Part shown: in pieces, positions 4,054-48,397 of the stretch
How positions within the stretch are numbered: position 1 is the first letter of the stretch
Layout of the letters: every line of letters begins with the position of its first letter
IMG/VR virus record: IMGVR_UViG_3300022221_000006
Location: 1-64,000 of that record
Source of the DNA: a virus
Length of the DNA stretch: 64,000 nucleotides
Reading direction: 5' to 3' (one strand)
Notes under the pieces: model-generated
Databases searched by the model: none
What the model was told of the DNA's origin: nothing
The model's input: the letters and a program-made list of their open reading frames with translations, nothing else
Position numbers and translations under genes: made by a program

Positions 4054-4067
4054 TTTTTTGATTTTAT

Positions 4068-4082
4068 CCCGTTAAATTAACC
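4068..4082 (+). promoter_or_regulatory. GTTAAATTAAC site, candidate phage promoter
   Basis: CCCGTTAAATTAACC directly follows the twin terminators and precedes the terminase operon. The core is an 11-bp odd palindrome (GTTAA-A-TTAAC). Matching sites occur at 20627 (before scaffold and capsid) and 41844 (before holin). Position and conservation fit a promoter for a phage RNA polymerase, or an operator. Confidence 0.6.
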
Positions 4083-14398: not shown

Positions 14399-16009
14399 AT
14401 GACTGTAGCAAACGCCGCTGATGTCACCAGAACAGTAGCAGATCCTAACGCTGAATACCTATCAATGCGTGATATATGGGATCGAAACAGGGCTGTATGC
14501 GGCGGCGAGCGCTACGTAAAGGCCTTAGATCAACGCTTAAGTCCTAGCATGCAAAACATGCTTATTCCTTTTTCCCCATCTATGACGCAGCCTCAATATG
14601 ACTTCTATCGTTTAGAGGCTGAGTTACCTGGGATTGTGTCTCAATTTTCAAAGATGTTGGTAGGAGGTCTTCTGCGCAAGACCCCTGTACTAACTCTACC
14701 TGACGACATGCCTGAAGGTGTCCGTGAGGAGGCTCACGACTGGATCATGAATAGCTTCACCCAGGACAATTCATCAATCACATCCTTTCTAGACACCGCC
14801 TTGTGGGAAGAGATTCAAACAGGACGTGCCTGGGTATATGTAGATTATCCTTTTGTTGAAGATGCAGATTCACTTACAAATGCAGACTTCAGAGAACTTG
14901 CTCCATTTCCTATCCTATGGAAGCCTGAAGAGATTGTGAACTGGAAACTTGGAAAGGATGAGAAAGGAAATGCAGTCCTAAAACAGATCATTGTACGGAC
15001 ACTAGTCGAACAGTATGGTGATACTGAAGACACTGAATTTCATCCTACATTTAAAGATACAGTTTATGTTCATGAACTCGACAGCGTCGGATATTATCAG
15101 ATTCGCGTATTCGAAAGAGCTGATGATGTACAAGACGCACCGGTCGTTAATGGAAATCCCTACAAGAAACAATCCGATAGTAAGGTGGCTTTTCCTCTTG
15201 TAGACACGATCACTGGGATCAAAGCAAATGGCGAACGTTTGACACGAATCCCTGCATGGCCTCTTAATGGTAGCATGAAGATTACTGATCCAATCATTTC
15301 CGCTATCGTAGACAAAGAAATCAGTCTATATAATAAAATCAGTCGCCGTAATCACTTACTATATGGTGCTGCTACATACACTCCTGTGATATTCTCCGAC
15401 ATGGGTGAAAAAGAGTTCGACGAAATTGTAGCGAGTGGACTGGGAAGTTGGCTGCGGTTACCTATGGAGGCTAAAGTAGAGGTTCTAAAGACTCCTACAG
15501 ATGCTCTGAAAGATATGGAGAAAGCGATTGCAAGTGCTATTGAAGAGATGGCACGCTTAGGGATTCGTATGTTAAGTCCTGAGACTGCTCAATCAGGGAT
15601 TGCTCTTGAGATTCGGAATGCTGCCCAGACTGCTCAGCTAGGCTCCTTAAATAACAAGGTGTCTGCGATCATGTCTAAGATTATTGCTTTTATGCTGAAT
15701 TGGCGGTATGATTTAGAATTGACAGATTCTGATGTTGAATTTGACCTTTCATCTGACTTTAATCCCATCCCACTAGGTGCTGACTGGATTAGACTAGCAA
15801 CAGAATGGTATGAGAACGGTCTACTTCCACGTAGCGTTTGGCTTCAGATTCTGAAACAGAATGACATTGTCTCTCCTGACTATGATGATGAAGACGGTCA
15901 GACAGAGATTATTGAAGACGACCTGATACAAGGTCAGGCGAAGGCCGAAAATGAAGATATCCAAGATCAACTTGACAAAGAACTGGAAGATGAAGATTTA
16001 GATGCCTAA
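14399..16009 (+). CDS. Portal protein (DUF4055-like)
   Basis: 536-aa portal, the dodecameric ring through which DNA enters and leaves the capsid. The N-terminal D-P-N-A-E-Y-L-S-M-R-D-I-W-D-R, the G-G-E-R-Y-V-K segment, the region near 70-100 with F-Y-R-L-E-A-E-L-P, and the following G-R-A-W-V-Y-V-D-Y-P match the DUF4055 portal-like family. A long helical stem around residues 300-420 and an acidic, probably flexible C-terminus (from about 500) follow. Its stop overlaps the start of the MuF-RNA polymerase fusion, as expected for portal-MuF pairs. Confidence 0.85.
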   Translation: MTVANAADVTRTVADPNAEYLSMRDIWDRNRAVCGGERYVKALDQRLSPSMQNMLIPFSPSMTQPQYDFYRLEAELPGIVSQFSKMLVGGLLRKTPVLTLPDDMPEGVREEAHDWIMNSFTQDNSSITSFLDTALWEEIQTGRAWVYVDYPFVEDADSLTNADFRELAPFPILWKPEEIVNWKLGKDEKGNAVLKQIIVRTLVEQYGDTEDTEFHPTFKDTVYVHELDSVGYYQIRVFERADDVQDAPVVNGNPYKKQSDSKVAFPLVDTITGIKANGERLTRIPAWPLNGSMKITDPIISAIVDKEISLYNKISRRNHLLYGAATYTPVIFSDMGEKEFDEIVASGLGSWLRLPMEAKVEVLKTPTDALKDMEKAIASAIEEMARLGIRMLSPETAQSGIALEIRNAAQTAQLGSLNNKVSAIMSKIIAFMLNWRYDLELTDSDVEFDLSSDFNPIPLGADWIRLATEWYENGLLPRSVWLQILKQNDIVSPDYDDEDGQTEIIEDDLIQGQAKAENEDIQDQLDKELEDEDLDA

Positions 16010-19000
16010 TGTAAATACAGCGATCTATGATGGTAAAGTAGATCGCGCTGCTATGCTACGCCTGTACGAACAGAATACCCATGGAAAGATAGAAGCTGTC
16101 TTTGATGGTCATGTAGTTCGTCTAGATAAGCTAGTGAAGAAGTCTAAAATTAATTCAAAGACTTTCAAAGACTTTCAAAAGAATCTTGATATCGAATTGA
16201 AGAAGACCTACAAGGAAGCCTTTAGTGTTTCTAAAAGGTCACTGCTTGACATGGCAGCAGATCAAATGTCGTTTACATACCAGAATTTAGATGCTGCATT
16301 AAGTAAGGTGTGGCGCACAAAGAGACCCCAAAGACGTATCTCTGAAGATATTGTCTTAAAACAACCACTCTACGAGAATAGAACTCTTGAGATGGGTTGG
16401 AAAGGGGTCTCTAAAAACGAACGAAAAAGACTTGCGCAAGTGATTCGTAAAGGTATTGCAGACGGTGATACCGAAGAGATCATCGCCAGGAATATCAGAA
16501 GAGGCAATGTTCATAAAATAACCCGTAATCAATCGCGATCGTTAGTGACCACTGCAATGACGAGTGTTAATGCTCAGGTCGATCATAGTGTCTATGTCGA
16601 GAATGAAAAAGCACTTCAGGGTTGGCAGTATGTAGCTGTTCTTGACTCAAGTACTACACAGATATGTGCCTCCCGTGATGGTAAGATATATGGCGTCGAT
16701 GACACAGCGTACCTCCCTCCTGCTCATTGGCAGTGTCGTTCGACAATAATCCCTGTGGTTAAGAAGTGGGAAGATCTTGCAAGTCTAGAGAGCGTTGCTC
16801 AGCTGCGTAGAAGAAATATGGCAAAACTAAGCCCTGCTCAGATAGCTAGATACGATGGCCAGACGCCTCTGAAAGAAACATATAATGCCTGGCTCCTGAG
16901 ACAGCCTTCAAAGATCCAATATACGCATCTAGGTGATTGGCAGAAAGTAGACCTTTTTAACAAAGGGAAGATACATCTTTCTAAATTTACTTCTCCGGAC
17001 GGTAAAACATTAGGGATTCGTCAATTGCGTCGGATGACAGATTCTGAGTATGCACCTCCAACAGGTTCTCAACGTTTTGCATTAGCAAAGGAAAAACTAG
17101 ATGCGATGAATCTTGGTGCTATCTCTCCTGATGATTTTATAAACGACCGTAAGATGACAAACACCCTAAAGAATTTCTACATTCTTCAATCAAAAGAATT
17201 GGACGGTACTTTATCACTTACTAACTATAGAGGAAATCTCATAGGAACAAAGAGAGCACAGAAACGAAGAGTGCTTACAAGACCTCCCAGAGAAGAACAG
17301 GTGATTTTCAATCCGGTCACAGGTCGTTATGAAGATTCAAGAATGTTTCAGCCAACACCTTCTGTTCTCGTGAACAATATGAGGCTTGTGAATGAGAGTA
17401 GTATTCTTAAGGTCGCAGATAAAGAATACATCGATCGTTTTATTGGAAGTCTCTCTGAGTATATGAGTGTAAATGAAAGAGCTGTCGTGGCTGATAATCT
17501 GAGAATTCTCTTCACAAGATATCGAAAGAACCCCGAGAATTGGGTTAACTTTAAAGCCATTTCACAAGCACAGATTAAGTTTGACGTAATGAATGTCTCT
17601 GACACAATCGAGACACAGCTCAGAAGCGATGCGAATCTACTGAAGAAGCTTAAGCAGGATAATTACATTGACCCTGTCCTAGGTCCTGTTACCTTTGAAG
17701 ATCTTGACAAACACTTCATAAGTAATATATTAGAACGTAATAAATGGGAAGATCGTATTGCTCCTAAAATCTCAGAGGAACTCCGTGACGTTTTCGATCA
17801 CAACATACCATTTAAAATACGAAGACGTTTGAGTGATTCAAATTTACAGCAGTTCTATCTAAAATTTGCACATAGACTTTCTCTGGCAGACAGTCCTGAT
17901 GTAGACCAGCTAGCGGCTGCTTTAGGTCGTGATCTGTACAATCTTGCGAACTATAATGGCAATCGTCGACAATGGTATGACCTAGGTAAGAAACTTTTAG
18001 AGTCGAATAATAAATTCTTCGAACTAGAAACCTTTGGAGTTCAGAAAAGACGTATGAAAAGTAGAATGAGTGGTCAGCTATTTGGACCTTATTACGACAC
18101 GTTCTCTTACAACATTCGCATCACAGACCCTCGTATCCAGAGGTATTCTCAGCTAAATAGAAAGATTGAGGTAGGTCTCAGGATCGGTGTCACAGATGTC
18201 GGTAATCGACTGGTCTTTCGAGAAGGTTATAAAACGTACTTCATCAAAAACCGTCTTGGCCTCTACACAGACACTCGGATACCAATTACGTCAACAAGCA
18301 GTTTTATGGACTTTCCAGAAGGTCTTATAGACAAAGAAATGGCCGCATCTTTGAACTGGGCAGCTAAGACTGAGTATCGAATCGATGAGGACTTCTACGA
18401 CTCGATCATGCATATAATGAACTTCACAGACGATAAAGGTAAGGCAAAATACTTCGATGATATAAACGAGTACCGTAAATATATAGCAGCTAGAGGTGAT
18501 GCGTATGAAAGATTTAAAGCGATGGAGTGGTTTCGTAAGAGAGGAGTTGCTTTTAGTAATCATCCTTTTGTTGACCACCGTGTGCGTATCTATGACCGTG
18601 GCTTTATCGGTCCTCAGTCTGGTGAAACTTTTAGACCTTTCCTGAATACTGCCAAGGAGAAAGTCTTAGGCATCGATAACTTTAGAAATCTGCAAGATCA
18701 AATTGGAGCTTTCTTAGGAGGTCTCGATGACTATTTTGAAGGTCGTTATAACTCTCTAAGTGTGACAGGGCGACAGAAGATTGCAATAAAATGGCGTAAA
18801 GAGCTGGTTACTATTGGAAATCATATGATACGAAATAAGCCAAATGATGTCCGTAAGATTCTTCAGTCAGACATGGTGGCTAGAATCGAAGGTGAAGAAT
18901 TAGGTAAGTTTCTCAGATTCGCAATTGAAGTTGCTAAGATAGATAATTATCTAGACGGTGTCTATAACAAAACCTCTCTTCAAAAGCTTTCTAAATACAA

Positions 19001-20621
19001 GACAGCTCTCGCTCTTGAACAAGACGCATCGTCTTCAGGTGCCCAGATCATTGCGCTAACCACACGAAATAAGCAATTAGCAGAGCTTAGTAATGTTGTC
19101 CCTACAAACCAGAAACGACGACTCTACGACGAAATAGCAGCTGCCACGTTCAACGATCCAGCGTTTAGAAAACTAAATGAGAAGTTTGGACTTACTGAGA
19201 AAGATTTACGCAAGGCTGCGAAGGCTCAGAACATGGTAACCTTTTATGGAGCAGGAGAGAAGACAGGGATTCTGAACGTTGAAGGTAAATTGGCAAAAGT
19301 TCTTGAGAGACAACCTGGTACTCTCGTTGTGAAGGCCTCTGATCGCGACGTTGTCCTCAGTGAGATATCAGCACGCATTGCTCGTTATGAACGCTTTGAT
19401 CCTGCTATTGCTGAAGAATTGAAAGTCCTTAGAAGCAATGTACGTGACATATTCAACAAAGGTCTTCATGTAGGGGATGACATCATGGAAGACTTATATT
19501 TCTTGGACCCCGCGACCAAAGATCTGGTGTTACAAATGACGCAAAACTACACAAAGGTCGTAACCCCTGATGATTTTCGGCAGATTGCTAAGATTATGAG
19601 TATGCATCTTGGCGAACAGGTTCCTATCTTGAAAGACTTTACAAAATATTTAGGGCGACTGGGTGAAGACTTTCTCATCAACGCTAAACCTTCTAAGAGT
19701 AGTTTTTCCTGGAAAGGTATTTTAAAGGAGCGGTTATTTGGTTCATCCCGTGATGGTTATAAGCTGTCGAAAGAAACCAGTAAGCTTCTGGGACTCCCTG
19801 CAAACACAGCTATCTCAAAGCAGATTCTGAGTAAGTTTGGCTTCTGGCGTCCTAATGGAACTCTCAGCCAGCTACTCTATGGAGTAAAGGATCCAGGAGA
19901 TCGCAGAATAGGAGCTAAGTATTTCAAGATTCAAATAACAAAATTTAAGAAAATCTTTTCAATCGAAGTTTTCAAAGCCAACAGATTGCCTAAAAGGTGG
20001 ACAAACATCCCCTGGAAGAACTTCGATGGGAAGACAATTGAGCAGAACTTTACGCAGACCTTCGAAGAGCGTCTGTTGTATAGAGATAAGGACGGTAACT
20101 GGGTTACGAATATTCTTCAAGTACCTCAAAAGACGCAGGCGACTTGGTGGGAACAAATTCTCAATGATGCAGGAAATATTGACGATATTGCTGATGCTAC
20201 AAAGGCTAGAACTGCCTATGCTGTAAATGGGAATCACTCCAATGATGCTGTGATTGTCAAGCGATTCCATTTGTGGGGTAAGTCTGAAGATGTTCCTACT
20301 TCTACAATTCATGACGCTTTCTTTACTAATATCGCGGATATGTTAAAAGCACGGTCGGCTCTGCGTAAAATATATGCTGATGCTATGAAAACAAATGTTA
20401 TAAAAGCAACTCTAGATGAGATGTTAGCGAGAGGTCTCCCTCGTGCACTTTATGACAAGTATTTGAATGAAGCCATTGAAATAGGCCTTATCCCTGTACC
20501 AGGAAGGTCTCGAGTAGGCGGCAAGCTACTAAAAGATACCGACATATTAAACTCTGAAGACATCTTAAAGAAGGTTAATGAAGTCTTTCAGGAAGATGCT
20601 TATTGGTACGGCGTGGGGTAA
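16002..20621 (+). CDS. MuF minor head protein fused to T7-type RNA polymerase
   Basis: 1539 aa. Residues about 150-255 are a Mu F-like domain with LDSSTTQICASRDG (near 213-226) and PPAHWQCRST, the hallmark of portal-bound minor head proteins. About residues 600-1480 carry single-subunit RNA polymerase motifs: DHRVR (858-862, T7 DWRGR421-425, Gly replaced by Val) followed by IY-x6-PQ at T7 spacing; Asp1008 in QDASSSGAQ (T7 Asp537), with the following P and Y at identical distances; Arg1070-x3-Lys1074-x7-Tyr1082-Gly (T7 Arg627-Lys631-Tyr639); and IHDAF with Asp1438 (T7 Asp812). All catalytic residues are present. Residues 260-600 are unassigned. Likely a packaged virion RNA polymerase delivered with the DNA; the fusion and role are inferred. 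Confidence 0.85.
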   Translation: MPNVNTAIYDGKVDRAAMLRLYEQNTHGKIEAVFDGHVVRLDKLVKKSKINSKTFKDFQKNLDIELKKTYKEAFSVSKRSLLDMAADQMSFTYQNLDAALSKVWRTKRPQRRISEDIVLKQPLYENRTLEMGWKGVSKNERKRLAQVIRKGIADGDTEEIIARNIRRGNVHKITRNQSRSLVTTAMTSVNAQVDHSVYVENEKALQGWQYVAVLDSSTTQICASRDGKIYGVDDTAYLPPAHWQCRSTIIPVVKKWEDLASLESVAQLRRRNMAKLSPAQIARYDGQTPLKETYNAWLLRQPSKIQYTHLGDWQKVDLFNKGKIHLSKFTSPDGKTLGIRQLRRMTDSEYAPPTGSQRFALAKEKLDAMNLGAISPDDFINDRKMTNTLKNFYILQSKELDGTLSLTNYRGNLIGTKRAQKRRVLTRPPREEQVIFNPVTGRYEDSRMFQPTPSVLVNNMRLVNESSILKVADKEYIDRFIGSLSEYMSVNERAVVADNLRILFTRYRKNPENWVNFKAISQAQIKFDVMNVSDTIETQLRSDANLLKKLKQDNYIDPVLGPVTFEDLDKHFISNILERNKWEDRIAPKISEELRDVFDHNIPFKIRRRLSDSNLQQFYLKFAHRLSLADSPDVDQLAAALGRDLYNLANYNGNRRQWYDLGKKLLESNNKFFELETFGVQKRRMKSRMSGQLFGPYYDTFSYNIRITDPRIQRYSQLNRKIEVGLRIGVTDVGNRLVFREGYKTYFIKNRLGLYTDTRIPITSTSSFMDFPEGLIDKEMAASLNWAAKTEYRIDEDFYDSIMHIMNFTDDKGKAKYFDDINEYRKYIAARGDAYERFKAMEWFRKRGVAFSNHPFVDHRVRIYDRGFIGPQSGETFRPFLNTAKEKVLGIDNFRNLQDQIGAFLGGLDDYFEGRYNSLSVTGRQKIAIKWRKELVTIGNHMIRNKPNDVRKILQSDMVARIEGEELGKFLRFAIEVAKIDNYLDGVYNKTSLQKLSKYKTALALEQDASSSGAQIIALTTRNKQLAELSNVVPTNQKRRLYDEIAAATFNDPAFRKLNEKFGLTEKDLRKAAKAQNMVTFYGAGEKTGILNVEGKLAKVLERQPGTLVVKASDRDVVLSEISARIARYERFDPAIAEELKVLRSNVRDIFNKGLHVGDDIMEDLYFLDPATKDLVLQMTQNYTKVVTPDDFRQIAKIMSMHLGEQVPILKDFTKYLGRLGEDFLINAKPSKSSFSWKGILKERLFGSSRDGYKLSKETSKLLGLPANTAISKQILSKFGFWRPNGTLSQLLYGVKDPGDRRIGAKYFKIQITKFKKIFSIEVFKANRLPKRWTNIPWKNFDGKTIEQNFTQTFEERLLYRDKDGNWVTNILQVPQKTQATWWEQILNDAGNIDDIADATKARTAYAVNGNHSNDAVIVKRFHLWGKSEDVPTSTIHDAFFTNIADMLKARSALRKIYADAMKTNVIKATLDEMLARGLPRALYDKYLNEAIEIGLIPVPGRSRVGGKLLKDTDILNSEDILKKVNEVFQEDAYWYGVG

Positions 20622-20626
20622 TAGAA

Positions 20627-20645
20627 CCCCGTTAAATTAACCCTG
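20627..20645 (+). promoter_or_regulatory. GTTAAATTAAC site before scaffold-capsid operon
   Basis: CCCCGTTAAATTAACCCTG starts 6 nt after the MuF-polymerase stop and 81 nt before the scaffold start. It shares 18 of 19 positions with the site at 41844. Placement between two large virion genes suggests a promoter that boosts capsid-protein transcription. Confidence 0.6.
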
Positions 20646-20725
20646 TTATTTAGTGTAACAAGAGTCTTAACAATTAAACGTGTTGCTGTGCGACACATAA
20701 ATGAGCTGTGCTCAGGAAAAGAAAG

Positions 20726-21412
20726 ATGCCAGATGAAGATGACGATACCAAAATCAAGGATCCCAAGAAAATTGTGGTCGGTGATACTGATGAAGCGACA
20801 AAGCTTCTCATCGCCCAACAGATTCAAGATGGGATTGCTGAGTCTTTAAAACCTATCAAGGAAAATCTTGATAAGGCGTATAAGGCTAAAGAAGAAGCTG
20901 AGGCCCGTGCTCTAGAGCTGGAAAATAAGCAGAAAGAACGCGAGCTTAAAGATTTGGAAGAAGCAGGAAAGCACAAAGAAGTTTACGAACAACGTCTTGC
21001 TGATAAGGAAAAAGAACTGGAAGACACCGCCCAGACTATGAAGTCTTTGGCTCAAAAGAACATCGAACTGACGAGAGATATTGAAGTTCGAAATGCTCTG
21101 CGAGAGTTTGACTTTAGAAACGCCAATGCTAGTGATATGGCATTTCGAGAAGTCATAGGAAGTCTTACACAGAACTCCTCTGGAACATGGGTAGACGGTC
21201 AAGGTAGATCTGTCCTGGAAGTTGTTAAAGGTTTCGTTGATAACGAGACAAATGCTTTTCTTCTTAAACCGAAATCATCATCAGGCTCCGGCACACAACA
21301 CGGGGACGAAACTCCACCTGCCATTACGAAGACAGATTCTCTCTTCGGGATGAAGCAGGCGGATGTACTAAAACTAGCCTCTGAGGGTAAACTACCCAGA
21401 ACGAGGCGCTAA
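20726..21412 (+). CDS. Putative scaffolding protein
   Basis: 228 aa, between portal/MuF genes and the major capsid protein, where scaffold genes normally lie. The N-terminus is acidic (MPDEDDDTKI), residues about 40-115 form a long charged coiled coil (E-A-E-A-R-A-L-E-L-E-N-K-Q-K-E-R), and the C-terminus carries a basic G-K-L-P-R-T-R-R tail, the usual capsid-binding end of scaffolds. The ATG at 20726 is preferred because AGGAAA lies 8 nt upstream; GTG 20708 would add six residues. Confidence 0.8.
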   Translation: MPDEDDDTKIKDPKKIVVGDTDEATKLLIAQQIQDGIAESLKPIKENLDKAYKAKEEAEARALELENKQKERELKDLEEAGKHKEVYEQRLADKEKELEDTAQTMKSLAQKNIELTRDIEVRNALREFDFRNANASDMAFREVIGSLTQNSSGTWVDGQGRSVLEVVKGFVDNETNAFLLKPKSSSGSGTQHGDETPPAITKTDSLFGMKQADVLKLASEGKLPRTRR

Positions 21413-21427: not shown

Positions 21428-22645
21428 ATGCGTACTGACATACGAGTTAATGATACTGGTGGTTACACACCTTACGTTCTACAAGAAACTATCGGAGCCT
21501 ACTCTGACGAGGCATACACCAATGCCCGTAAGTTATCAGGAACCGATATCGTCCAGGGCGATCCTGATATCGATACTGATGGTGAGACCTATATTGGTCA
21601 AATGCGATGGTTCACCCCATTAAATCCTGTTGTTAATGTTGCATCTCTGACTGATGCGACCAATGGTACTCCTACCACTTACGGTTCACAGTTCTTGCAA
21701 TATGTGAAATCGGCTCGTACACACGGTGCTGAGAAAGTTAACCTTTCAAAGATTGTCACTCAAGACGACGGTCTGGCAAAAGTAGGTCGTGATCTGGGTG
21801 AAACTCGTGCACAAGATGAGCATGATGCAATCCTGGCTATTCTGAAAGGCGTAGCCATCTCTGAGCTTATGTACGGTGCTGCTCAGGCTACCGGCGCTTC
21901 AGGTCTTGGTGGTCAGTCATTCTCAAATGACCCTTCCGATAATGCTTATGGCTTCTATGTCGATTTAGGTGCAAGCAAGGTTGTTACTGATGCAGCTGCT
22001 GCTAATATTGGTGCACAACGAGCTGCTGGCTTTCTGAATGCCTTTGGTCAAGCATATAAGGACCATGAGCCTGAGTACGCATACCTCGTTGCCAGTCCTG
22101 CTGTTATGGCTTCACTGCGCTCTGCTAATCTGGTAGATTCTGATCGTGTCACTGACGGTAATGTTGAGTTCAACACTATCTTCCAGGGCAAGTTCCGATT
22201 GATCCAGACTCGTGCTACCCAGTCATTGACTGCAGCTGAACGAGCAATGTTTGCAGCCACTTCTGTAGCGTCTGAAGGTGTCGATATTGTCGGCACGTTA
22301 ACTTCGTATATCGTACTGCCTGGTGCTCTTGCAATGGAGCCTTTGACTATCGATGAAGACGTTGAGATCGAACGAGCAGCTGCTGCCTACCAAGGTGGTG
22401 GTACTACTCAAATATGGTATCGTTGGGGTTACATCCTACATCCTGCTGGTTACAACTGGGCAGGTTCTCAGGATGCATTTCCTACCAATGCAAATTACCA
22501 GCAAATCACTGACGGAACTACTCCTGTAGCTGTTGACTCTATCGGTGCTGCTACCGTGAATGGCCTTGACGGCTTCACTGGTGTATGGCAGCGTAAGACA
22601 AGCTCAGCTCTGTCTCTGGGTATCCTCCCAGTCTTCCACTCTTAA
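21428..22645 (+). CDS. Major capsid protein
   Basis: 405 aa. It has the features of an HK97-fold capsid protein in the N4-like/DUF4043 style: an N-terminal arm, then F-T-P-L-N-P-V-V-N-V-A-S-L, an extended loop, a long spine helix around residues 115-145 (D-L-G-E-T-R-A-Q-D-E-H-D-A), and the A-domain with V-A-S-P-A-V-M-A-S-L. Late codons are strongly biased to Ala and Gly, unlike the replication genes, which fits high expression. No protease gene was found nearby, and the next gene begins the neck block. Confidence 0.85.
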   Translation: MRTDIRVNDTGGYTPYVLQETIGAYSDEAYTNARKLSGTDIVQGDPDIDTDGETYIGQMRWFTPLNPVVNVASLTDATNGTPTTYGSQFLQYVKSARTHGAEKVNLSKIVTQDDGLAKVGRDLGETRAQDEHDAILAILKGVAISELMYGAAQATGASGLGGQSFSNDPSDNAYGFYVDLGASKVVTDAAAANIGAQRAAGFLNAFGQAYKDHEPEYAYLVASPAVMASLRSANLVDSDRVTDGNVEFNTIFQGKFRLIQTRATQSLTAAERAMFAATSVASEGVDIVGTLTSYIVLPGALAMEPLTIDEDVEIERAAAAYQGGGTTQIWYRWGYILHPAGYNWAGSQDAFPTNANYQQITDGTTPVAVDSIGAATVNGLDGFTGVWQRKTSSALSLGILPVFHS

Positions 22646-25857: not shown

Positions 25858-28800
25858 ATGTCAGGTGTTATAGTTGATGTAGATGCCAGAACAGAGAAGG
25901 CTGAACGCGACTTACAACAGATAAATAAATCTCTTAGAGGTATAGAGACTTCAGCAAGTAATGCTGGTAAGACCATTTCACGTGCGTTCGTTGGAATAGG
26001 TGCAGCCCTTACAGCTCATTTCTCAGTTTCACAAGTCAGTGGTATCTCAACCGAATTTACAAATCTGTCCAATCAAATAGCAGTTGTGACAGGTAGAACG
26101 CGAGAACTAAACAAGGTCCAGTCCGAGTTGTTCAACATTGCTGAGAACACTCGTGCCTCGATCTCTAACACAGTATCTACCTTTGGTAGCCTAGGACGCT
26201 CACTGCGAGGTGTTGAATCGTCTAATACTAAAATACTGACGGTTACAAAGGCTATTCAACAAGCAACTGCCCTATCAGGTGCCTCTTCTGAATCCGCGAA
26301 AGCTGCCATTGTCCAGTTAGGACAGGGTCTCGCTGCAGGTGCTCTGAGAGGTCAAGAACTCATGTCTGTCATGGAACAGTTGCCACGTGCTGCTATAGCG
26401 ATAGCCGACGGATTGGAGGTGCCTCTGGGTGCTCTGCGCAAGCTGGGCGAGTCCGGTAAATTGACGAGTGAACAAGTTTTTAATGCACTACTTCAACAGT
26501 CTGAGAAGATAGGCCAGGAATTCAAAAGCTTAGCACCTACTGTTCAGCAGTCAAAGAACCTTCTCACAGACAGCTTAAAAATCTATATAAGTGAGCTTGA
26601 CAGGGGTATGGGTCTTTCCGATCGAATGGGCAGTTCCTTGCAAGGGTGGAGTAAAAAGATCAGAGAGGCATCTAAGGGCGCGTATGATCTCGGGAATAGA
26701 ATTGCGTATAACTTGACTATCTTCAAGCGAGAAATCAAACAGTTTGTAGGCCCTTTCGCTAATATAGGTATTGCTATCGCAAAGCAATTTAAGAAGGCCC
26801 TCCCGAAGGCGTTTCTGACACTTACATTTGAAGCGATGTATAGAGATGTCATTCGAGACCTCGATAAGTTTACAGGGGGCTATATAAGTGCTTGGAAACG
26901 TTTCAAATTCATCGATATAATAAAGATTGAGAGTGATGTTGAAATAGCGATAAGAACCCTGAAAAGACTCCATCCTAAATATTGGGCTGCAGGAGGTTTT
27001 GATGTACTGTCTCTGAAACATTTCTTTAGCGCCGAGAATTTAAATCTGTATCTACGTGCCTTACAATCACTTGCTGACGCTATTGAGAGTAACATACGTT
27101 CAGCTGCATCAGTTTTTAAGTCTCTTGCCATCAACATCAGGTTCGGAACAGAAGCAATGTTGAGGTTTGTAGGCATCATACCCGAATCTCTTGTCATGTT
27201 TCGAGTAGGACATTTAAAGCCTTTTCTGAAGACTGTTATTGAAATTGCACGTGCCATCACAGGTACATCTCTCGAATTCTATAGAGTAGGGCGCTTAATA
27301 TCGGAAGGTCTGTTTCCAGACATCATCAGTGTCTTTAGAGCTATGGGCGATATTATGCAGCAACTGTTTGGACGTATTACAAGCAGTTCTCGTCTAGCGA
27401 AGGCGATAGGTTACATCAAGACTTTCGCTGACTCTGTGATGAGGCTCTTTGAGAAAGTCTATATGAGCGTTGTCGGGGGCTCCACATGGACAGATACGAT
27501 GAAAGGAATTTATGAGAAAGCTCGCTCATTTCTAGGTAAGACGCGAAAGGCCCTAGCATCTTTCGGAGAGTTTGTAATGACGCAGTTTAAGAAACTTGCT
27601 GATAAAAACCTCTGGTCAAAAGTAGGCATAGCAATTCATACAGCTATCTTTTCAATAATCCCAGTAGCTGCATGGATTATTAGGAGTGTTATTGATATTG
27701 TGACAACATCGATTGTTGCCTCATTAGGAATGATAGGATATCTATGGGCTAAAACTTTTAACAGCCTTGCAGAAGTTGCTCCTAAGTCTATCGCTAAAAT
27801 GATACGTCGTGTAAGAGATTTTGGTCTTGAGCTAACTGTGTTATTCGCAGGTGTTGTTATTGCAGTAGGACGTCTTCTTAAGGCTCTTCTCTGGGTTGTA
27901 GCTGCTCTAGGTAAACTCTTCGTAATGGGTGCTGTTTTCTCATTTCATGCTCTTATCTATGAAATCTCACGACTGACAGAGTACCTCCGAGGGGATGCTG
28001 TACATGATATCATTGATTTTGGTAAAAAGGTTATTGACGTCTTCGCTGAAATCTATGACAAAGTTATAGGTAACTCGTATTGGACTGATCTGATTGAGAA
28101 TATTGTCAATACTTCAAACAGTCTCTGGGACTCTGTAAAAGGAGGCTTTTTCAAGTTCTACAATAACATTGTCAGTCTTTTTAAGTCCCTCAATAAAAGA
28201 GCTTCACTTCCAACATTCGAATTTAAAAGTTCCGTCAGTATTCCATTCATCGAGGATAAAAGTCTTCTTACACGAATGAAAGATAGAATACTTGAAATGT
28301 ACGCTGATGTTGCAGAAAGGTTTCCTACGATGATAACAGGTGCCGTTCTCGCCGTCGCCGGTATCGCTGTCTCACTTTTATTTCCAGCAGGTGAGATAAA
28401 GAAAGCATTACTGAGCGGTATCTTTCTTGCCCTTATAAAGGCCGGTACCTTGATCGCTAGCGCGTTAGGCAAGGGTGTACTAGATGTTAACTTTGTAACG
28501 TCGCTGGCCAGGTCTGCAGGTAACGCTGTGGGTAACTTCATTGGAGGCATTCTTAGAGACCTCCCTGCTACATTTGACCTCTTGTTAGGCGCTGCCATTA
28601 ACTTCATCCGTGGTGTCTTTGAAGCAGTCCTTACACAAATTCCAATTTTAGGAACCGCTATTAAGGGTATCTTTGGTATCTTAGATGCAACAGGGACTTC
28701 AGGAGTAGCTGGTGTCATAGGGACATTGTTTCTAGGAAAATATATTGCAAACGTTCTTGGATTCTTTGGCCTCTTTACAACACCTATGGCAAAGATGAAA

Positions 28801-31800
28801 GGGATCATGGGTAAACTATATACCGTTGTCTCGGGTAAAGGGGGAGTTCTTTCCCAGTTGGTCTTCGGTAGACTAGGACCAACAGCTGGTATCGCAATGG
28901 TCTTAGGTGTCTTGGATATATTAGGAGCCTTTGATACATTATTTGAAGACTCCCCTTTGTTCCACTTAGCAGCACAGGGCGGTATCGTGGCTCTCATGTT
29001 AGGAGGTAATGGAGCAATCCAGTATGCGAAAAACTTTGCGATTGATAAAATCTTATCACCTATAGGTGACGCACTTCGTAGAGGGGCGATCAATATGGGG
29101 TTTGGTCAAATCCTTGCGAATGCGATGGTTACAGGCCAGGAAGGGTTTGTTGCCTCTACTCTTGCCTTTGTGACATCAGCGATTCAATCAGTAGGTTCCC
29201 GAATTGTAAGTTTTGTAGCACCTCTCGCTAGTAAAACATACGACTATTTACAGATACTGCTGTTAGGTCCTGATCCTGCTGCGACTATCGCAAAAATGAA
29301 ATTATACCTTATCGCAGCAATGGATTCAGGGAAAGCACTCTTGAGTGGGATTGGTGCCTTCTTATCGCCTCTATTAGCTAGTATGGGTTCTTTCTTTAAA
29401 GGATTAGGAGCACAAGTCTCTGGTTTGTTTTCCCAAGTGCAGACCGCCAGTGTGAGAGCAGCTTCCACAGCAACAAGTGTCGGTGGTCGTAACGGAATCT
29501 TTGGGAGAGTGATCTTCGGAGCTGCCGGTAGAACAGGTCTTGTCCTGGCCATCATTGCACTCTTGACACTTTTCAGCTCTTCAGCAAGTGCTGCTGATAA
29601 AGAAATTACAAACTTAGCAGGCAATAACCGTATTGGTCAGGCAGCTTCCTCCTTGAAGCAAGATTGGGAAGATATCCGCGACAACAATCCTCTGGCAGCT
29701 GCAGGTATTACAGCTCTAGGTGTGTTTACCACACTAGGTGTCTTCCTCGCGTATAAATTTAGACGTGATGTACTGACCTCTATGTTGAGTGCTTTTAACC
29801 CTAAAATTGCTTACAACTTCGGCTTTTCAAGTCTTAAAACAATCGCTAAAATCAAGTCGGCGATGCTGTCCTTGGGCCGTGTTATTGCAACATCTTTTGT
29901 TGCTTTTGAAGCAGGTTCTGCTATAGGTGAAGCTTTTGGAGGAGAAGAAGGAAGTATGATTGGGGGTACCATAGGTGTCCTCATCGCTGAAGGCCTGATA
30001 CGAGCCTTTGGAGGCACTTTCAAGAAGATCTTTTCATGGCGGTTAATATGGCCGATTATCACAGGAGCTTTTGCATTTATAGGTAAAGCACTGATAGGTC
30101 TTATCTTCTCTAAAATCGCAGCTGTTGTTTCTATTGTAGGTATTTTGGGTCTGCTCCTATTCGGAAAGAAAGGAGAGTTCTGGAATGATATTGGAAAGGC
30201 AATTCAATGGGTCAAAGAATTAATAGGGCTCAGTACAGAGGCTTCTAGAATAGATTCAAAGTCAGGGATTTCAAATGAAGCTCTTGGATTTGCAAACCTC
30301 AATCAGATAGATGTCGCTCATTCTTTAGAAGGTATCGACTTTGATAAGATAAGTGACCGTCAGACTGAACGACTGGAAGCAAAGCTTAATGAGGTGAATG
30401 ATGCAATTCTAGAAGCACAAGAGGAAGCTTCATTTACAAAGGATGGTAAGATTGTTGAAGATACAAAGAAATCTCTTGAGATACTCCTAAAGGGTACAAA
30501 GAACTATGTCGACAAACTAACAAGCCAGAGCCTTCCTAGCTATGATGAAATAGGTGCTGCCTTAGACTCTTTTAAGTTTACAAAGGAAGCAACCCTCTTC
30601 GATTCCATCCTCTTAAATTATCGCCAGGGAGCCTTAGATGTTCTCTATGGCTTAAAAGATGTCGCTATTTCTCTGAAGGGATTACCTGATGATATAGAGA
30701 AGCGTGAACGAGCAATTCTTGCAGACTCAAAGCTCACCAAGTTCAACGCTCGATTCGTTGATGATGATCCAATTCTGAATAGCATTATCAAGGCTCAGAA
30801 AGATTTCGGTGAACCAGGTAAAGATGCAAACATCACATCTGAAGAAGAACAGAAGTTAGTCGATCTCACAGCAGCATATATACGTAATTTGAAGATTGCT
30901 TCAGAAGAACGCATAGGACTGTTTGGGAACCGACAGGCATTCAATGTCGAGGCAGATAGTTATAAACAGATGGCCGAAAGCGCTGCTGTTTTAAACTCAG
31001 AATTCGCGAAGTTAAAGCGTCTCTCAGATCGCCGCAATGAAGTAGAAGCCTTCAATAAAGATATCAAGCAGATCAGCAATAATCTCTCACTTATTGGGAT
31101 TAATATAAAGACCTCTGAACTATTTGCCGAGGACTCTGATGCTCTAGACCGTGTACGTATATTAGGGCAGACCGCTCGAGATGTGACAGAGAATCTAAAG
31201 AATCTTGCAAGTGTTGAAGAGATGAGAGAATACCTTATCACACTTTCTAGTGTAAAGAAAGAGCTAGGGGAAATCAAAGAGCGAGCTGAGAATGCAGGTA
31301 AGTCAATGCAGACCATTGCTTTACAAAGTCTTGAGGGTCTAGGCGATAGTCTTTTCTCAGAGGAAACTGTTAGACGTCTTCCTGAAACACTTTCAAAGGC
31401 TATTACCGAGCTATCGCGTGAGTATAAGGATAACAGTGGATTTCTAGATCTTGAGTTCAGACCGGATGCCGTGAGTACTGCTAAGTTCAGACGAGACACT
31501 GAGCTGAAGATGCTCAATCTGAAGAAGTCTATACATGAAATAATGTTAGACCCTTCAAATATAGGTGGTGCCAAAGAGCTTGCCGAAGGTTTGGGTCTTG
31601 ACTTTGATTCGTTACTCAAGCACAAAGGTATTCCAGGCATTGTAGACGCTTTGTCAGACGTCCTTGCTCTGCAACACGATATCGATCTTTCAAAACTATT
31701 AGGTGATGGTGAAAAATATCGAGACGCCTCTCTAGCTCTGAAGAAATATATGGAGCTACTGACTAAGGCTCCTCAGACATTAGATACACTCTTGAGCGAT

Positions 31801-33579
31801 TTTAGCACATTGGGTGGTGATCTTAGTGTGGGTGACTTTGTGACTCTAGACTCTAGTACATTGTCTAGGATGCGTGAACTCTCTACAGGTCTCCATGAAC
31901 TCAATTATGAACTGGCTGAAATGGGTGAGAATTTTACTTCTGAAGAACTCAAACAGAAAATGGAAGATCGTCTAAACTTAATGGCAGAAGCTTCGAAGTT
32001 AAATCTTGAAAACCTGTATACAACACCTCAGCGTATTTTAGATGGTCTAGGTCGCGCAGGTATCTCAGATGAGAAGCTTGTAGCGCTTCTTCCAGAAGGT
32101 ACATTCCGGGAGTTTCTTGCATTAGATACAACTATTGAGGACCTACGAGCTAAACTCCAAGACCCTCGCAATGCTGACAGTTTTGAAACTATTGCAAAGC
32201 AACTACGAGATGCACTTCTGACTGTTGACTCTCTTGAAAATAGACTTAAGCATGCGAATTTAAGTATCGCTGATGAGAGAGATACTGTCAATAGTCTCAC
32301 AAGGTCTGAAACAATTGGAAAGATTACAGAAGTCTTTCCTCAAATGCAAGGCTTTACAGACTCTCTAAATCAATTACCTCTTACAGATCTTCGAAATCTA
32401 TTAACATCCTCGCTAGACTTTAAACAAAAGTTCAGTGATGCTGACTTCGGTGTTGATGAGTTGTCAGCAGAGCAAGAGAAACAAATACGAGATGCCTTTG
32501 TCAAGGCGTTTGCGGTGTCACAAGAGGCTTCGAATTTTGGTCTTACTGCAAAGAGCCTACTGCTAGATTCAGGAGTGGATTTCAAGGAATCAGCTTACAA
32601 TCTTGTCACCGAGACTGCTGATAAGCAAATTCAACAATTAGCCACCGAACTACGTGATGCAAAAGCTCAACTGAGTGCAGGTGGTAACGCAGCTACTAGA
32701 ATTGCTGCGCAACAGTTGGTAAATCAAAAGAGTCGTGAACTTAGTGACGCTCTTGAAGCAGCTACCTACGATGTCAAAGAAGAAGCTTATAAGGCAGGTG
32801 GAACGTATTTCGGAAATATAAAGAGTGGATTTCAGTCAGCCTTTACAGATGGACTTAAAGGAACAAAATCGGAAGAAGCCTCAACGTGGGTAACATTCCG
32901 TGACTCTATTCTTGACATGTTTACCTCTAATGTAATAGAGACATTCTCTGGCGGCTTTTCTGACTCCATGTTCGCCCCTATAAAAGATTCAATCATGTCA
33001 GCAGGTGCTGAACTGTTCTCAGCTGGAAGTGCAGAAGGTGAAGGTCTTACAGATACATTTGCTGATGGAATGGGTGCTGTATTTTCAAGTATGAAGACAA
33101 CATTGGCGGATGGGGCATCCAGTATCTATGACTATCTGTCTGAGATCGATTGGAGTCAAGTATGGTCAACAGTGACAAGCTTCTTTGGCTTCTCAGGTGG
33201 TGGTAGTATTCTCACCGCTGCTACAGGTGGTCGATTGGTAGGCCCTGGTACTGGCACTTCTGATTCAATGCTGGCAAGAGTGTCAAATGGTGAATATATC
33301 ATTAACGCTGCAGCAACACGTCGCAATCTTGACTTGTTAGAGGCAATTAACAGTGGATCTGTTAGCAGTTATGCTACAGGAGGTCTTGTAGGACCAAATC
33401 CAACGATGACTGATAATGCTAGAAAGTCGTCAGTCAATATTAATAGTAAATCGAAGACATCACAAGTCTTTAATCTTAATGTAACAGGGGATATCTCAAG
33501 ACAGACCCGTAGTGAGATTGTACAAATGATTCCCCAAATCGCGCAGGGTGTTGGCGCATATAACAATGAATTCGGATAA
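25858..33579 (+). CDS. Tape measure protein
   Basis: 2573 aa. The N-terminal ~250 residues match the tape-measure N-terminal family (F-T-N-L-S-N-Q-I, L-A-A-G-A-L-R-G-Q-E-L, L-R-K-L-G-E-S-G-K-L-T). Long amphipathic helices and many hydrophobic segments (for example near residues 600-640, 1250-1280 and 1390-1440) could cross the host membrane during DNA entry. The C-terminus has the G-F-S-G-G-G and N-G-E-Y-I-I-N-A-A-A-T motifs typical of tape-measure ends. At roughly 0.15 nm per residue it implies a tail close to 0.4 micrometres, very long for a siphovirus. A tail lysozyme domain was not recognised. The ribosome-binding site is CAGGAGA. Confidence 0.92.
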   Translation: MSGVIVDVDARTEKAERDLQQINKSLRGIETSASNAGKTISRAFVGIGAALTAHFSVSQVSGISTEFTNLSNQIAVVTGRTRELNKVQSELFNIAENTRASISNTVSTFGSLGRSLRGVESSNTKILTVTKAIQQATALSGASSESAKAAIVQLGQGLAAGALRGQELMSVMEQLPRAAIAIADGLEVPLGALRKLGESGKLTSEQVFNALLQQSEKIGQEFKSLAPTVQQSKNLLTDSLKIYISELDRGMGLSDRMGSSLQGWSKKIREASKGAYDLGNRIAYNLTIFKREIKQFVGPFANIGIAIAKQFKKALPKAFLTLTFEAMYRDVIRDLDKFTGGYISAWKRFKFIDIIKIESDVEIAIRTLKRLHPKYWAAGGFDVLSLKHFFSAENLNLYLRALQSLADAIESNIRSAASVFKSLAINIRFGTEAMLRFVGIIPESLVMFRVGHLKPFLKTVIEIARAITGTSLEFYRVGRLISEGLFPDIISVFRAMGDIMQQLFGRITSSSRLAKAIGYIKTFADSVMRLFEKVYMSVVGGSTWTDTMKGIYEKARSFLGKTRKALASFGEFVMTQFKKLADKNLWSKVGIAIHTAIFSIIPVAAWIIRSVIDIVTTSIVASLGMIGYLWAKTFNSLAEVAPKSIAKMIRRVRDFGLELTVLFAGVVIAVGRLLKALLWVVAALGKLFVMGAVFSFHALIYEISRLTEYLRGDAVHDIIDFGKKVIDVFAEIYDKVIGNSYWTDLIENIVNTSNSLWDSVKGGFFKFYNNIVSLFKSLNKRASLPTFEFKSSVSIPFIEDKSLLTRMKDRILEMYADVAERFPTMITGAVLAVAGIAVSLLFPAGEIKKALLSGIFLALIKAGTLIASALGKGVLDVNFVTSLARSAGNAVGNFIGGILRDLPATFDLLLGAAINFIRGVFEAVLTQIPILGTAIKGIFGILDATGTSGVAGVIGTLFLGKYIANVLGFFGLFTTPMAKMKGIMGKLYTVVSGKGGVLSQLVFGRLGPTAGIAMVLGVLDILGAFDTLFEDSPLFHLAAQGGIVALMLGGNGAIQYAKNFAIDKILSPIGDALRRGAINMGFGQILANAMVTGQEGFVASTLAFVTSAIQSVGSRIVSFVAPLASKTYDYLQILLLGPDPAATIAKMKLYLIAAMDSGKALLSGIGAFLSPLLASMGSFFKGLGAQVSGLFSQVQTASVRAASTATSVGGRNGIFGRVIFGAAGRTGLVLAIIALLTLFSSSASAADKEITNLAGNNRIGQAASSLKQDWEDIRDNNPLAAAGITALGVFTTLGVFLAYKFRRDVLTSMLSAFNPKIAYNFGFSSLKTIAKIKSAMLSLGRVIATSFVAFEAGSAIGEAFGGEEGSMIGGTIGVLIAEGLIRAFGGTFKKIFSWRLIWPIITGAFAFIGKALIGLIFSKIAAVVSIVGILGLLLFGKKGEFWNDIGKAIQWVKELIGLSTEASRIDSKSGISNEALGFANLNQIDVAHSLEGIDFDKISDRQTERLEAKLNEVNDAILEAQEEASFTKDGKIVEDTKKSLEILLKGTKNYVDKLTSQSLPSYDEIGAALDSFKFTKEATLFDSILLNYRQGALDVLYGLKDVAISLKGLPDDIEKRERAILADSKLTKFNARFVDDDPILNSIIKAQKDFGEPGKDANITSEEEQKLVDLTAAYIRNLKIASEERIGLFGNRQAFNVEADSYKQMAESAAVLNSEFAKLKRLSDRRNEVEAFNKDIKQISNNLSLIGINIKTSELFAEDSDALDRVRILGQTARDVTENLKNLASVEEMREYLITLSSVKKELGEIKERAENAGKSMQTIALQSLEGLGDSLFSEETVRRLPETLSKAITELSREYKDNSGFLDLEFRPDAVSTAKFRRDTELKMLNLKKSIHEIMLDPSNIGGAKELAEGLGLDFDSLLKHKGIPGIVDALSDVLALQHDIDLSKLLGDGEKYRDASLALKKYMELLTKAPQTLDTLLSDFSTLGGDLSVGDFVTLDSSTLSRMRELSTGLHELNYELAEMGENFTSEELKQKMEDRLNLMAEASKLNLENLYTTPQRILDGLGRAGISDEKLVALLPEGTFREFLALDTTIEDLRAKLQDPRNADSFETIAKQLRDALLTVDSLENRLKHANLSIADERDTVNSLTRSETIGKITEVFPQMQGFTDSLNQLPLTDLRNLLTSSLDFKQKFSDADFGVDELSAEQEKQIRDAFVKAFAVSQEASNFGLTAKSLLLDSGVDFKESAYNLVTETADKQIQQLATELRDAKAQLSAGGNAATRIAAQQLVNQKSRELSDALEAATYDVKEEAYKAGGTYFGNIKSGFQSAFTDGLKGTKSEEASTWVTFRDSILDMFTSNVIETFSGGFSDSMFAPIKDSIMSAGAELFSAGSAEGEGLTDTFADGMGAVFSSMKTTLADGASSIYDYLSEIDWSQVWSTVTSFFGFSGGGSILTAATGGRLVGPGTGTSDSMLARVSNGEYIINAAATRRNLDLLEAINSGSVSSYATGGLVGPNPTMTDNARKSSVNINSKSKTSQVFNLNVTGDISRQTRSEIVQMIPQIAQGVGAYNNEFG

Positions 33580-40820: not shown

Positions 40821-40870
40821 TGCGCCATATGTGGTATCTTATATGAATAGGAATAATCCTATTATAATAA
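40821..40870 (+). promoter_or_regulatory. TATCTTATATG cassette, copy A
   Basis: TGCGCC then GGTATCTTATATGAATAGG, and an ATAGGA-ATAA-TCCTAT hairpin, ending 21 nt before the ATG at 40885. Copies B and C (42937, 43353) are nearly identical with the same 21-nt spacing. Possible host-type promoter (weak -35 TTGCGC, -10 TATGAA) or a phage-polymerase promoter with a 5' mRNA hairpin. Confidence 0.7.
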
Positions 40871-41717: not shown

Positions 41718-42028
41718 CACCACGATCTCAGGGTCACCCTTATGGGAGTGTGCCTGAAAAAACGACAGCAGAGACGGCCAGTCTGGAAGCCGTCCTCAAA
41801 AAATCCTTTAGAATCAAGGGGTTAGGGCGGTCGTCACCTCAGACCCCGTTAAATTATCCCTGTAGGCTCCCCCGTAATGTAGTATTTATAACTCCCTATC
41901 ACCACTGTTGTAAATCTATAACAATAAAGGATTAAAGAATAGAATAAGGATATCCCCTCAAGACCTTCTCTAAAGAGGTCACTCAATAGTCCCTAGGGCT
42001 AACTAAAATATAAATAAAGAGGTATATC
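41718..42028 (+). other. Non-coding region upstream of holin
   Basis: 311 nt with no gene I can support. It holds the GTTAAATTAAC-type site at 41844, a GACCT/AGGTC hairpin near 41961-41980, and 41882-41940, which resembles the reverse complement of part of the terminase leader. A conceptual reading frame across 41642-41935 lacks a ribosome-binding site and is not credible. Confidence 0.55.
41844..41862 (+). promoter_or_regulatory. GTTAAATTAAC-type site before holin operon
   Basis: CCCCGTTAAATTATCCCTG, one difference from the 20627 site over 19 positions. It precedes the holin-endolysin pair by about 170 nt, compatible with late control of lysis. Confidence 0.6.
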
Positions 42029-42936: not shown

Positions 42937-42985
42937 TGCGCAAAAATGGGTATCTTATATGAATAGGAATAATCCTATCACAACA
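42937..42985 (+). promoter_or_regulatory. TATCTTATATG cassette, copy B
   Basis: Same cassette as at 40821, with TGCGC, TATCTTATATG and the ATAGGA-ATAA-TCCTAT hairpin, ending 21 nt before the ATG at 43000. Identical to copy C over most positions. Confidence 0.7.
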
Positions 42986-43352: not shown

Positions 43353-43402
43353 TGCGCAAAAACAGGTATCTTATATGAATAGGAATAATCCTATCACAAC
43401 AA
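43353..43402 (+). promoter_or_regulatory. TATCTTATATG cassette, copy C
   Basis: Third copy, TGCGC then GGTATCTTATATGAATAGG and the hairpin, 21 nt before the ATG at 43416. Constant spacing and sequence in three independent units argue for function. Confidence 0.75.
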
Positions 43403-44515: not shown

Positions 44516-44673
44516 TAAAATTTATAGTGGGTCTATATTTGATATCGTTAATCCCAAAGGTTATTGAGAAAATTGAAAGCTATGATAAAACAAAAGATAA
44601 TTCTGACAACAACAAAAAGGATAGCAAAGGAAATTGCACCACAAAACCCCCTAATATATCTAAAAGAACATGA
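44512..44673 (+). CDS. Small protein overlapping RNA polymerase start
   Basis: 53 aa. ATGA overlap with the previous gene. A short hydrophobic N-terminus (about residues 3-17) is followed by a charged, asparagine- and lysine-rich tail. The second half overlaps the start of the RNA polymerase in another frame, so translation of the two may be linked. Its coding status is supported mainly by the coupled overlap. Confidence 0.5.
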   Translation: MIKFIVGLYLISLIPKVIEKIESYDKTKDNSDNNKKDSKGNCTTKPPNISKRT

Positions 44674-46837: not shown

Positions 46838-46849
46838 GAAACGTAACGA

Positions 46850-47494
46850 ATGAAGCAAATCAAACACACGCGTGAATTAAACAAAGAGGAGCTAGGACCT
46901 CTATATGACTATATCCTAGGGCTGAATGAACAGCTGCCTCTGGATATTGAGCTTGGACTTTATATCGAAATGGATCAATACCTGGGAGGCGACCTGTTTA
47001 TTGTCGACAACGTTCGAGACTTTCGTCTGATAGGTGCCGCAGGTCTGGTAGATAGTCTGGATTTCTTAACCGAACCAAATCTTGCAACTGTGCCCCAGGC
47101 GTATGATCACGCAGAATATATCCTGGAAGGAGCCTACGCGGTCTTATGGGTTTTGTGCAATAATGCAGGAGGACCGAACTTTATTATCCCTCGTTACTTT
47201 GCGCAGATGGAACCTAATGTACATCGTTCAATACGTCTCACTGAGAATTCATTGGCAGCTGACGTAGTCCCTGATAAAGAGACTGAAAGAGAAGTGATAG
47301 TTGAAAGTCACGAGGAGCCTTCTGACGAAGTTATAGACTCTCGAAAAGAAAGAGCGATGGATGATGGACCTGATTATGAAGATGGACCTGAGTTTGAAGG
47401 ATATGAAGAGCGTTGTGACAATGACGCATCTGACCCTTTCGAAGGAATGAGCGATAGAAACGAAGAGGATCAAAAGACTGATCCCGAACTATAA
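46850..47494 (+). CDS. Acidic hypothetical protein
   Basis: 214 aa. A folded N-terminal part (residues about 1-120) contains N-K-E-E-L-G-P-L-Y-D-Y-I, D-L-F-I-V-D-N-V and W-V-L-C-N-N-A-G-G; the rest is strongly acidic and probably disordered, ending with N-E-E-D-Q-K. Acidic C-tails often mimic DNA. It is encoded 12 nt after the RNA polymerase, with AGGAAA before the start. Function unknown. Confidence 0.6.
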   Translation: MKQIKHTRELNKEELGPLYDYILGLNEQLPLDIELGLYIEMDQYLGGDLFIVDNVRDFRLIGAAGLVDSLDFLTEPNLATVPQAYDHAEYILEGAYAVLWVLCNNAGGPNFIIPRYFAQMEPNVHRSIRLTENSLAADVVPDKETEREVIVESHEEPSDEVIDSRKERAMDDGPDYEDGPEFEGYEERCDNDASDPFEGMSDRNEEDQKTDPEL

Positions 47495-47497
47495 GCA

Positions 47498-47707
47498 ATG
47501 ATGCTGATAACACGAAAAGATCCATTCACCGGCGTAGTGAATGAGATGACACTTGATATTACTCGCAAACAATTGGACAGATGGGAGAAAGGAGGAGAAC
47601 TGATACAGAATGTATTTCCAACTTTGTCCCCTGATGAACGCGAATTTCTCATGACTGGAATAACACCAGATTCGTGGGATGAACACTTAGGTAATGATCA
47701 AGAATGA
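47498..47707 (+). CDS. Conserved small phage protein
   Basis: 69 aa. The pattern D-P-F-T-G-V-x2-E-M-T-L-D-I-T-x-K-Q-L-D-R-W, then Q-N-V-F-P-T-L-S-P-D-E-R-E-F-L-M-T-G-I-T-P-D-S-W is a small protein found in many phages, always annotated only as conserved. It overlaps the SSB start by 4 nt and the hydrophobic core suggests a compact helical fold. Possibly a replication accessory. Confidence 0.7.
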   Translation: MMLITRKDPFTGVVNEMTLDITRKQLDRWEKGGELIQNVFPTLSPDEREFLMTGITPDSWDEHLGNDQE

Positions 47708-48318: not shown

Positions 48319-48337
48319 AGTCTAGCTCGTTATCTCG

Positions 48338-48397
48338 ATGCCTGCTAAAATACATACTGTAAAATGCACCTAAAAGGCATGCCGGAATCGTAACCGG
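48338..48397 (+). ncRNA. CCGG element, copy 1, before 48435
   Basis: Stem ATGCC (48338-48342) with GGCAT (48376-48380), one G, then hairpin CCGGAATCGTAACCGG (48382-48397). The ATG of the next gene lies 37 nt downstream and begins Met-Ser-Glu. A further short hairpin (48309-48323) lies in front. One of four copies in the window. Confidence 0.7.

Follow-up and report, generated by a model that had tools for sequence, protein, structure and literature searches.

A MuF head protein joined to a T7-type RNA polymerase: a candidate virion polymerase of long-tailed phages

We analysed a stretch of 64,000 nucleotides of viral DNA (the window; positions 1 to 64,000 of the IMG/VR record IMGVR_UViG_3300022221_000006), whose head module includes a gene for a MuF-type head protein fused to a T7-superfamily RNA polymerase (RNAP). 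This gene lies on the + strand at 16002..20621 and is recognised by Pfam, by PHROGs and by its predicted fold. It forms a single frame of 1539 codons, whose ATG overlaps the stop codon of the portal gene (14399..16009, +; phrog_145, 4.3e-59), just as the original prediction, made from the letters and their translations, had described it. Downstream follow the genes for the head scaffolding protein (20708..21412, +; phrog_206, 2.8e-7) and the major head protein (21428..22645, +; phrog_247, 7.7e-18), and the same place between portal and scaffold or major head protein is occupied by the fusion gene in the roseophage DSS3_VP1. Further along the + strand lie a tape measure gene (25858..33579; PF20155, 3.3e-49), whose 2573-aa product indicates a long tail and in which no RNAP domain was found, and the gene for a second, unfused RNAP of 757 aa (RNAP2; 44564..46837; PF00940, 1.5e-67; phrog_414, 2.8e-113). 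The whole contig (G000:C53) is 74,179 bp long, with sequence in common between its two ends; it belongs to a 3.0-Mb bin of 391 contigs, of which a second one (C164, locus L084) encodes another relative of the fusion.

Within the single frame, both the MuF and the RNA_pol domain exceed their Pfam cut-offs. The N-terminal region (residues 2-408; 16005..17225, +) matches the head morphogenesis family phrog_241 at 1.9e-55 and contains a Phage_Mu_F domain at residues 144-250 (16431-16751, +; PF04233, 4.9e-13, 50.3 bits vs a cut-off of 29.6), in which the MuF signature reported earlier at residues 213-248 is indeed present. The structure model of this part is of low confidence (predicted local distance difference test, pLDDT, 68; predicted template modelling score, pTM, 0.54) and gave no fold match. 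Residues ~404-447 (17211..17342, +) have a low pLDDT in both models and are probably a flexible linker, which leads into the RNAP region (residues ~450-1539; 17349..20618, +; AlphaFold2 and Foldseek, PF00940). The roughly 340 residues that had been left unassigned between MuF and polymerase can now be divided among the rest of the head-morphogenesis family, the probable linker and the N-terminal part of the polymerase. The last of these is about equal in length to that of T7: the stretch from residue ~450 to the DxxGR-type motif at 858 resembles the T7 spacing, so that much of the formerly unassigned region belongs to the polymerase.

The polymerase region is matched by Pfam RNA_pol (PF00940) at residues 991-1100 (1.4e-8, 34.5 bits vs a cut-off of 22) and by phrog_414 (RNA polymerase) at residues 856-1089 (3.3e-21). 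All motifs named in the original prediction were recovered at their positions (DHRVR at 858-862, D1008xSxSGxQ, R1070-x3-K1074-x7-Y1082-G and IHD1438), and DHRVR as well as motifs A, B and C align with T7, SP6, N4 RNAPII and other polymerases. We aligned 32 sequences over residues 396-1539, the relatives being 32-74% identical to the window protein. Invariant in this alignment, down to ~33% identity, are Asp1008, the catalytic residue of motif A (19023..19025, +), Lys1074, Tyr1082 and Gly1083 of motif B (residues 1070-1083; 19209..19250, +), the HSND motif at residues 1412-1415 (20235..20246, +; HSQD in T7, according to a profile alignment to T7 RNAP) and His1437-Asp1438 of motif C (20310..20315, +). 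Two details of the earlier description stand only in part. Of the residues R1070, K1074 and Y1082, likened to those of T7, the latter two are conserved, but R1070 is not (Q in one relative, L062, and A in DSS3_VP1). Similarly, the Gly-to-Val change in the DxxGR-type motif (DHRVR; 18573..18587, +) is present as V861, but the change is local and the position variable, most relatives having A and DSS3_VP1 having G there. The C-terminus reads YGVG, without the FAFA end of the T7 type.

A family profile built from the alignment retrieves T7 RNAP from the PDB at 9.9e-5 on sequence alone, with the DxxGR, motif A and HSxD/HD regions in register; a single-sequence phmmer search of the PDB yielded nothing useful. 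AlphaFold2, run on the same alignment, gave a model with a pLDDT of 77 and a pTM of 0.75, whose fold, compared by Foldseek, matched RNAPs of mitochondria and of T7 with a probability of 1.00 (7e-18 to 1e-16; best values 6.7e-18 for mitochondrial RNAP and 5.0e-17 for T7 RNAP). In the viral library the top match (2.8e-61) was a protein of 1463 aa, as long as the homologue QGH74596.1 from DSS3_VP1; ordinary phage RNAPs came next, and N4-type virion RNAPs after them. Both the profile search and the structure comparison, which had been proposed as checks on the original prediction, thus came out in its favour, and the profiles, together with the model of the polymerase part, confirm that the fusion carries a complete T7-superfamily RNAP, predicted to be catalytically active, joined to a MuF region.

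Patterns from the polymerase part of the fusion retrieved at least 578 confirmed stretches of environmental contigs in IMG/VR, so that this polymerase is not a rarity; 80 loci encoding relatives were fetched from one scan. Among named records, a homologue is present in the roseophages DSS3_VP1 and DSS3_PM1 and in the metagenomic EBPR siphovirus 1. A megablast search of the window against phage records gave no match, and no relative was confirmed in GTDB genome contigs. The gene order of DSS3_VP1 (Naomviridae) is the same as in the window (portal, fusion, coat protein, tape measure and a separate 'RNA polymerase'), although its fusion protein is only ~33% identical and has diverged motifs. Across the group the single frame is kept at ~33 to 74% identity. 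In relatives other than the DSS3 type, the polymerase part (61-74% identity) is better conserved than the MuF part (48-72%), which argues against its decay.

The fusion gene is often targeted, at codons of its catalytic motifs, by group I introns with HNH endonuclease genes. In several relatives these lie within motif B, between V1079 and T1080 (KAQNMV|TFYG; L077, L078, L080 and L081), and the intron of another (L049) is near residue 1410, close to the HSND motif. In phage enzymes such introns as a rule occupy the codons that are best conserved. In three records (G020, G031 and G033) the fusion gene is in several pieces. Furthermore, L068-L071, L073 and L075 share an in-frame insert of ~230 aa after residue 1106, just downstream of motif B; an intein was considered for this insert (232 aa), but no splice motifs were seen and we take it as an inserted segment.

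RNAP2, which did not figure in the original prediction, is by its sequence an ordinary T7/N4-type RNAP. It was found in 15 of 16 long records carrying the fusion, the single record without it being 67.9 kb long and possibly a fragment. In a tree of 25 single-subunit RNAPs, the fused polymerases (MuF-RNAPs; support 100/99) and the RNAP2s (97/99) form separate clades, the latter taking in Pelagibacter phage Kolga. The two polymerases are therefore not a recent duplicate pair, and a recent origin of the fused polymerase by duplication of the phage's own RNAP2, as in Thermus phage P23-45, was rejected. In this tree the MuF-RNAPs join the N4 virion RNAP (vRNAP) by long branches, and we do not rely on that placement.

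An exact 30-bp repeat occurs at 40833, 42949 and 43365, in the interval from the tail genes to RNAP2, and each copy directly precedes a ribosome-binding site and an ATG. The repeat overlaps a 25-bp element, GCGN9GTATCTTATATGA (hereafter the early element), with three copies in the 74-kb contig, all of them on the + strand in the early region ahead of RNAP2: 40822..40846 (core 40834-40846), 42938..42962 (core at 42950) and 43354..43378 (core at 43366). Each is followed by the same 6-bp hairpin, ATAGGA-ATAA-TCCTAT, at 40847-40862, 42963-42978 and 43379-43394, respectively. The first copy has the GCG and the core but lacks the AA of the consensus, and two of the three copies fit the strict pattern GCGNNAANNNNNGTATCTTATATG.

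To look at relatives, we selected 15 regions by the position of RNAP2, independently of the motif. The core was present on the coding strand with 0-2 mismatches in 14 of them, and GCG (rarely ACG) stood exactly 12 nt 5' of it, in regions spanning 34-62% GC. Of 21 records, 18 contain the strict pattern, without exception on a single strand, and its reversed control had no match in the 21. A scan of IMG/VR with the DNA pattern of the element alone returned at least 119 stretches; among the matches listed, all 17 records of at least 60 kb encode a MuF-RNAP, as do 25 of the 40 records tested, those without it all being shorter than 54 kb. Even in the distant DSS3_VP1 a two-copy 32-bp repeat lies between the tail genes and RNAP2, at about 35.8 and 36.2 kb, and its last 25 bases, GAGAAAACTAAGGCATCTATAATGA, keep the length, the spacing and most of the conserved bases of the early element. 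From its sequence and placement the element appears promoter-like, and in the window genome it is confined to the early region. An obligatory hairpin promoter of the N4 type was considered and rejected: a stem of at least 5 bp is present in just 25% of 138 dereplicated copies (6% in shuffles), so that the hairpin is at most an optional leader feature and the N4 hairpin-promoter rule is not assumed here.

A second class of motif, which we call late-type, reads CCGTTAAATTAACC and precedes the terminase region (4065..4082, +), the scaffold and other genes. The copy at 20625..20642 (+) stands directly 3' of the fusion stop, before the scaffold and major head genes, and is kept in relatives; a further copy with one mismatch was found by motif scan at 41842..41859 (+). 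It was found, confined to one strand, in 18 of the 21 records, and the reversed control matched once in the whole set. In DSS3_VP1 it takes the form (A/G)CGTTAAAGAGG, with nine copies on the + strand. A copy inside the DNA polymerase gene (50562-50579) is either a chance occurrence or an internal promoter. Two polymerases and two polar motif classes are compatible with a two-step cascade.

On these grounds we consider it likely that the fusion is a MuF-anchored virion RNAP, which is packaged, injected with the DNA and transcribes the early genes, RNAP2 included, in a cascade resembling that of N4. MuF proteins are known to reside next to the portal, and from this place we infer that the MuF part would hold one or a few copies of the polymerase inside the head, beside the portal. 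By analogy with N4 and P23-45, the chain would leave through the portal and the tail along with the DNA on infection and then refold; the T7-type polymerase, if active as predicted, would start at GCGN9GTATCTTATATGA elements and make the early RNAs, among them that of RNAP2, which may then read CCGTTAAATTAACC-type promoters for later genes. Since RNAP2 cannot be the enzyme that first transcribes its own gene, the few elements before it are most simply read by a polymerase that accompanies the DNA. The need of RNAP2 for an earlier polymerase and the conserved promoter-like element of the early region lend further weight to a packaged early polymerase. As a reading, the earlier suggestion that the phage delivers its own polymerase as a domain of a head protein is supported, in that fold, catalytic residues, family and head-module position all hold; presence in the virion, injection and activity are predicted.

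Several points weigh against this proposal. A protein of ~175 kDa would have to pass a long and narrow tail, a passage without known precedent among T7-type RNAPs of siphoviruses, and the model of the MuF part is, as described above, low in confidence and without a fold match. Moreover, both motif classes and both RNAPs share the same phages, so that co-occurrence cannot assign a reader to either motif. The last point speaks for a variant in which the virion does contain an active fusion, yet the reader of the early element is the host RNAP with a sigma factor, or RNAP2, while the virion polymerase serves another step, e.g. by helping DNA entry. Although copy 1 of the element overlaps a sigma70-like hexamer pair, the early region has sigma70-like sites in background numbers (20 vs 16.8 +/- 4.1), and a 25-bp element of fixed spacing that persists at 34-62% GC is unlike host promoters. 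In addition, GCGNNAANNNNNGTATCTTATATG was not found elsewhere in the 3-Mb bin, which may not be that of the host, and reading by RNAP2 meets the difficulty of that enzyme's own first expression. We regard this variant as unlikely.

It seems very improbable, moreover, that the polymerase part has lost its activity and is retained as a bulky domain with an internal head or pilot role, since all catalytic residues are invariant, this part is conserved better than the MuF part, introns lie in the codons of motif B and a matching early promoter class exists; the replacement of the DxxGR Gly by Val or Ala in most members, the variable R1070 and the YGVG end without FAFA are the features that such a loss of function could explain. 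A cut after synthesis, by which the MuF part would enter the head and the polymerase remain in the cell to serve late or as an accessory RNAP, could take place in the low-confidence, probably flexible linker (~404-447). To this we give hardly any credence, as the two parts are maintained in one frame across the group, the scanned genes (not all of them were scanned) include no recognised head protease, and a polymerase made late would leave the first expression of RNAP2 unexplained.

RNAP2 opens a T7-like replication module in this siphovirus (44564-62720), which also comprises a gp2.5-like single-stranded DNA-binding protein, a family A DNA polymerase, an exonuclease, a primase/helicase and a B12-type ribonucleotide reductase. 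An open reading frame at 52678-53625 matches an NMT1-like (periplasmic-binding type) family at 2.9e-7, which is odd for a phage replication region, and phrog_6856 (unknown function) at 1e-16. Between the fusion gene and the scaffold, a TGT-loop hairpin (TGAGC-TGT-GCTCA) is located at 20702-20714, and hairpins occupy the same place in most relatives and in DSS3_VP1. The listed GTG start of the scaffold frame (20708) falls within this hairpin, and its real start is probably the ATG at 20726. Perfect TGT-loop hairpins occur here once or twice per relative (54 in 40 regions, with 28 different stems), the stem sequence differing while pairing and loop are kept; such a signal arises in 1.4% of shuffled regions. 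There was no enrichment of these hairpins across the whole window, the signal being restricted to this one intergenic region, and from sequence it looks like a candidate RNA control element at the scaffold ribosome-binding site.

Virion RNAPs are known from N4-like phages, phiKZ-like jumbo phages and P23-45. The fusion described here is similar to gp50 of N4 (Schitoviridae) in that a T7-superfamily polymerase lies within a larger virion-type protein, and N4 likewise has a second T7-type RNAP in its early region with few early promoter copies before it (PMC4496689). By contrast, N4 has a short tail, its gp50 of ~3,500 aa has other flanking domains and no MuF (as opposed to 1539 aa with MuF), its promoters require the hairpin that is optional here, and its vRNAP stands apart from the MuF-RNAPs, which form a clade of their own. 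The N4 virion contains 4 +/- 1 vRNAP copies, and the channel by which they are ejected is narrower than the protein itself (PMC12633501). Like our phage, P23-45 is long-tailed and has two promoter classes and two RNAPs, one of them fused to a structural protein, and its tape-measure-fused RNAP is present in virions as a full-length fusion (PMC10770324). However, its gp96 and the nvRNAP gp64 are two-barrel (cellular-type) enzymes descended from a duplication, the former fused to the tape measure, whereas here a T7-type RNAP is joined to MuF, the tape measure is separate and without RNAP, and the two RNAPs fall into separate clades. In polyvalent MuF proteins the MuF domain is likewise combined with a C-terminal enzymatic domain, whose delivery is predicted; the portions of Iyer et al. 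2017 considered here list effector domains such as PBECR and RelA/SpoT, do not describe a MuF-RNAP fusion, and state that virion RNAPs of the N4 kind are confined to N4-like phages (PMC5512222). The nearest unfused MuF protein, 28% identical over 346 aa, is that of Pelagibacter phage Kolga EXVC016S, whose head protein has 633 aa and no RNAP, and which has an RNAP2 homologue (27.7% identity). Neither the early nor the late motif class was found in Kolga EXVC016S, an absence that, given the distance of this phage, is weak support.

A full-text search of the literature (open-licence papers) found no report of a MuF-RNAP and no experiment on its family. In the deposited records of DSS3_VP1 and EBPR siphovirus 1, which have the same fusion, the polymerase part is unrecognised and masked by the annotation 'minor head protein-like' or 'head protein'. 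A candidate promoter and a cultured member, DSS3_VP1, make packaging, rifampicin resistance and promoter use testable now. It is conceivable, and we propose it tentatively, that a T7-type enzyme with linear promoters, carried on a portal-proximal MuF protein through a long siphovirus tail, represents a further independent form of RNAP delivery, which would allow a large lineage (Naomviridae and relatives) to start transcription independently of the host RNAP while the DNA is entering. If the packaged-polymerase proposal is true, virion-encapsidated T7-type polymerases would extend beyond the N4-like short-tailed phages, and the MuF head protein would be able to carry a whole transcription enzyme.

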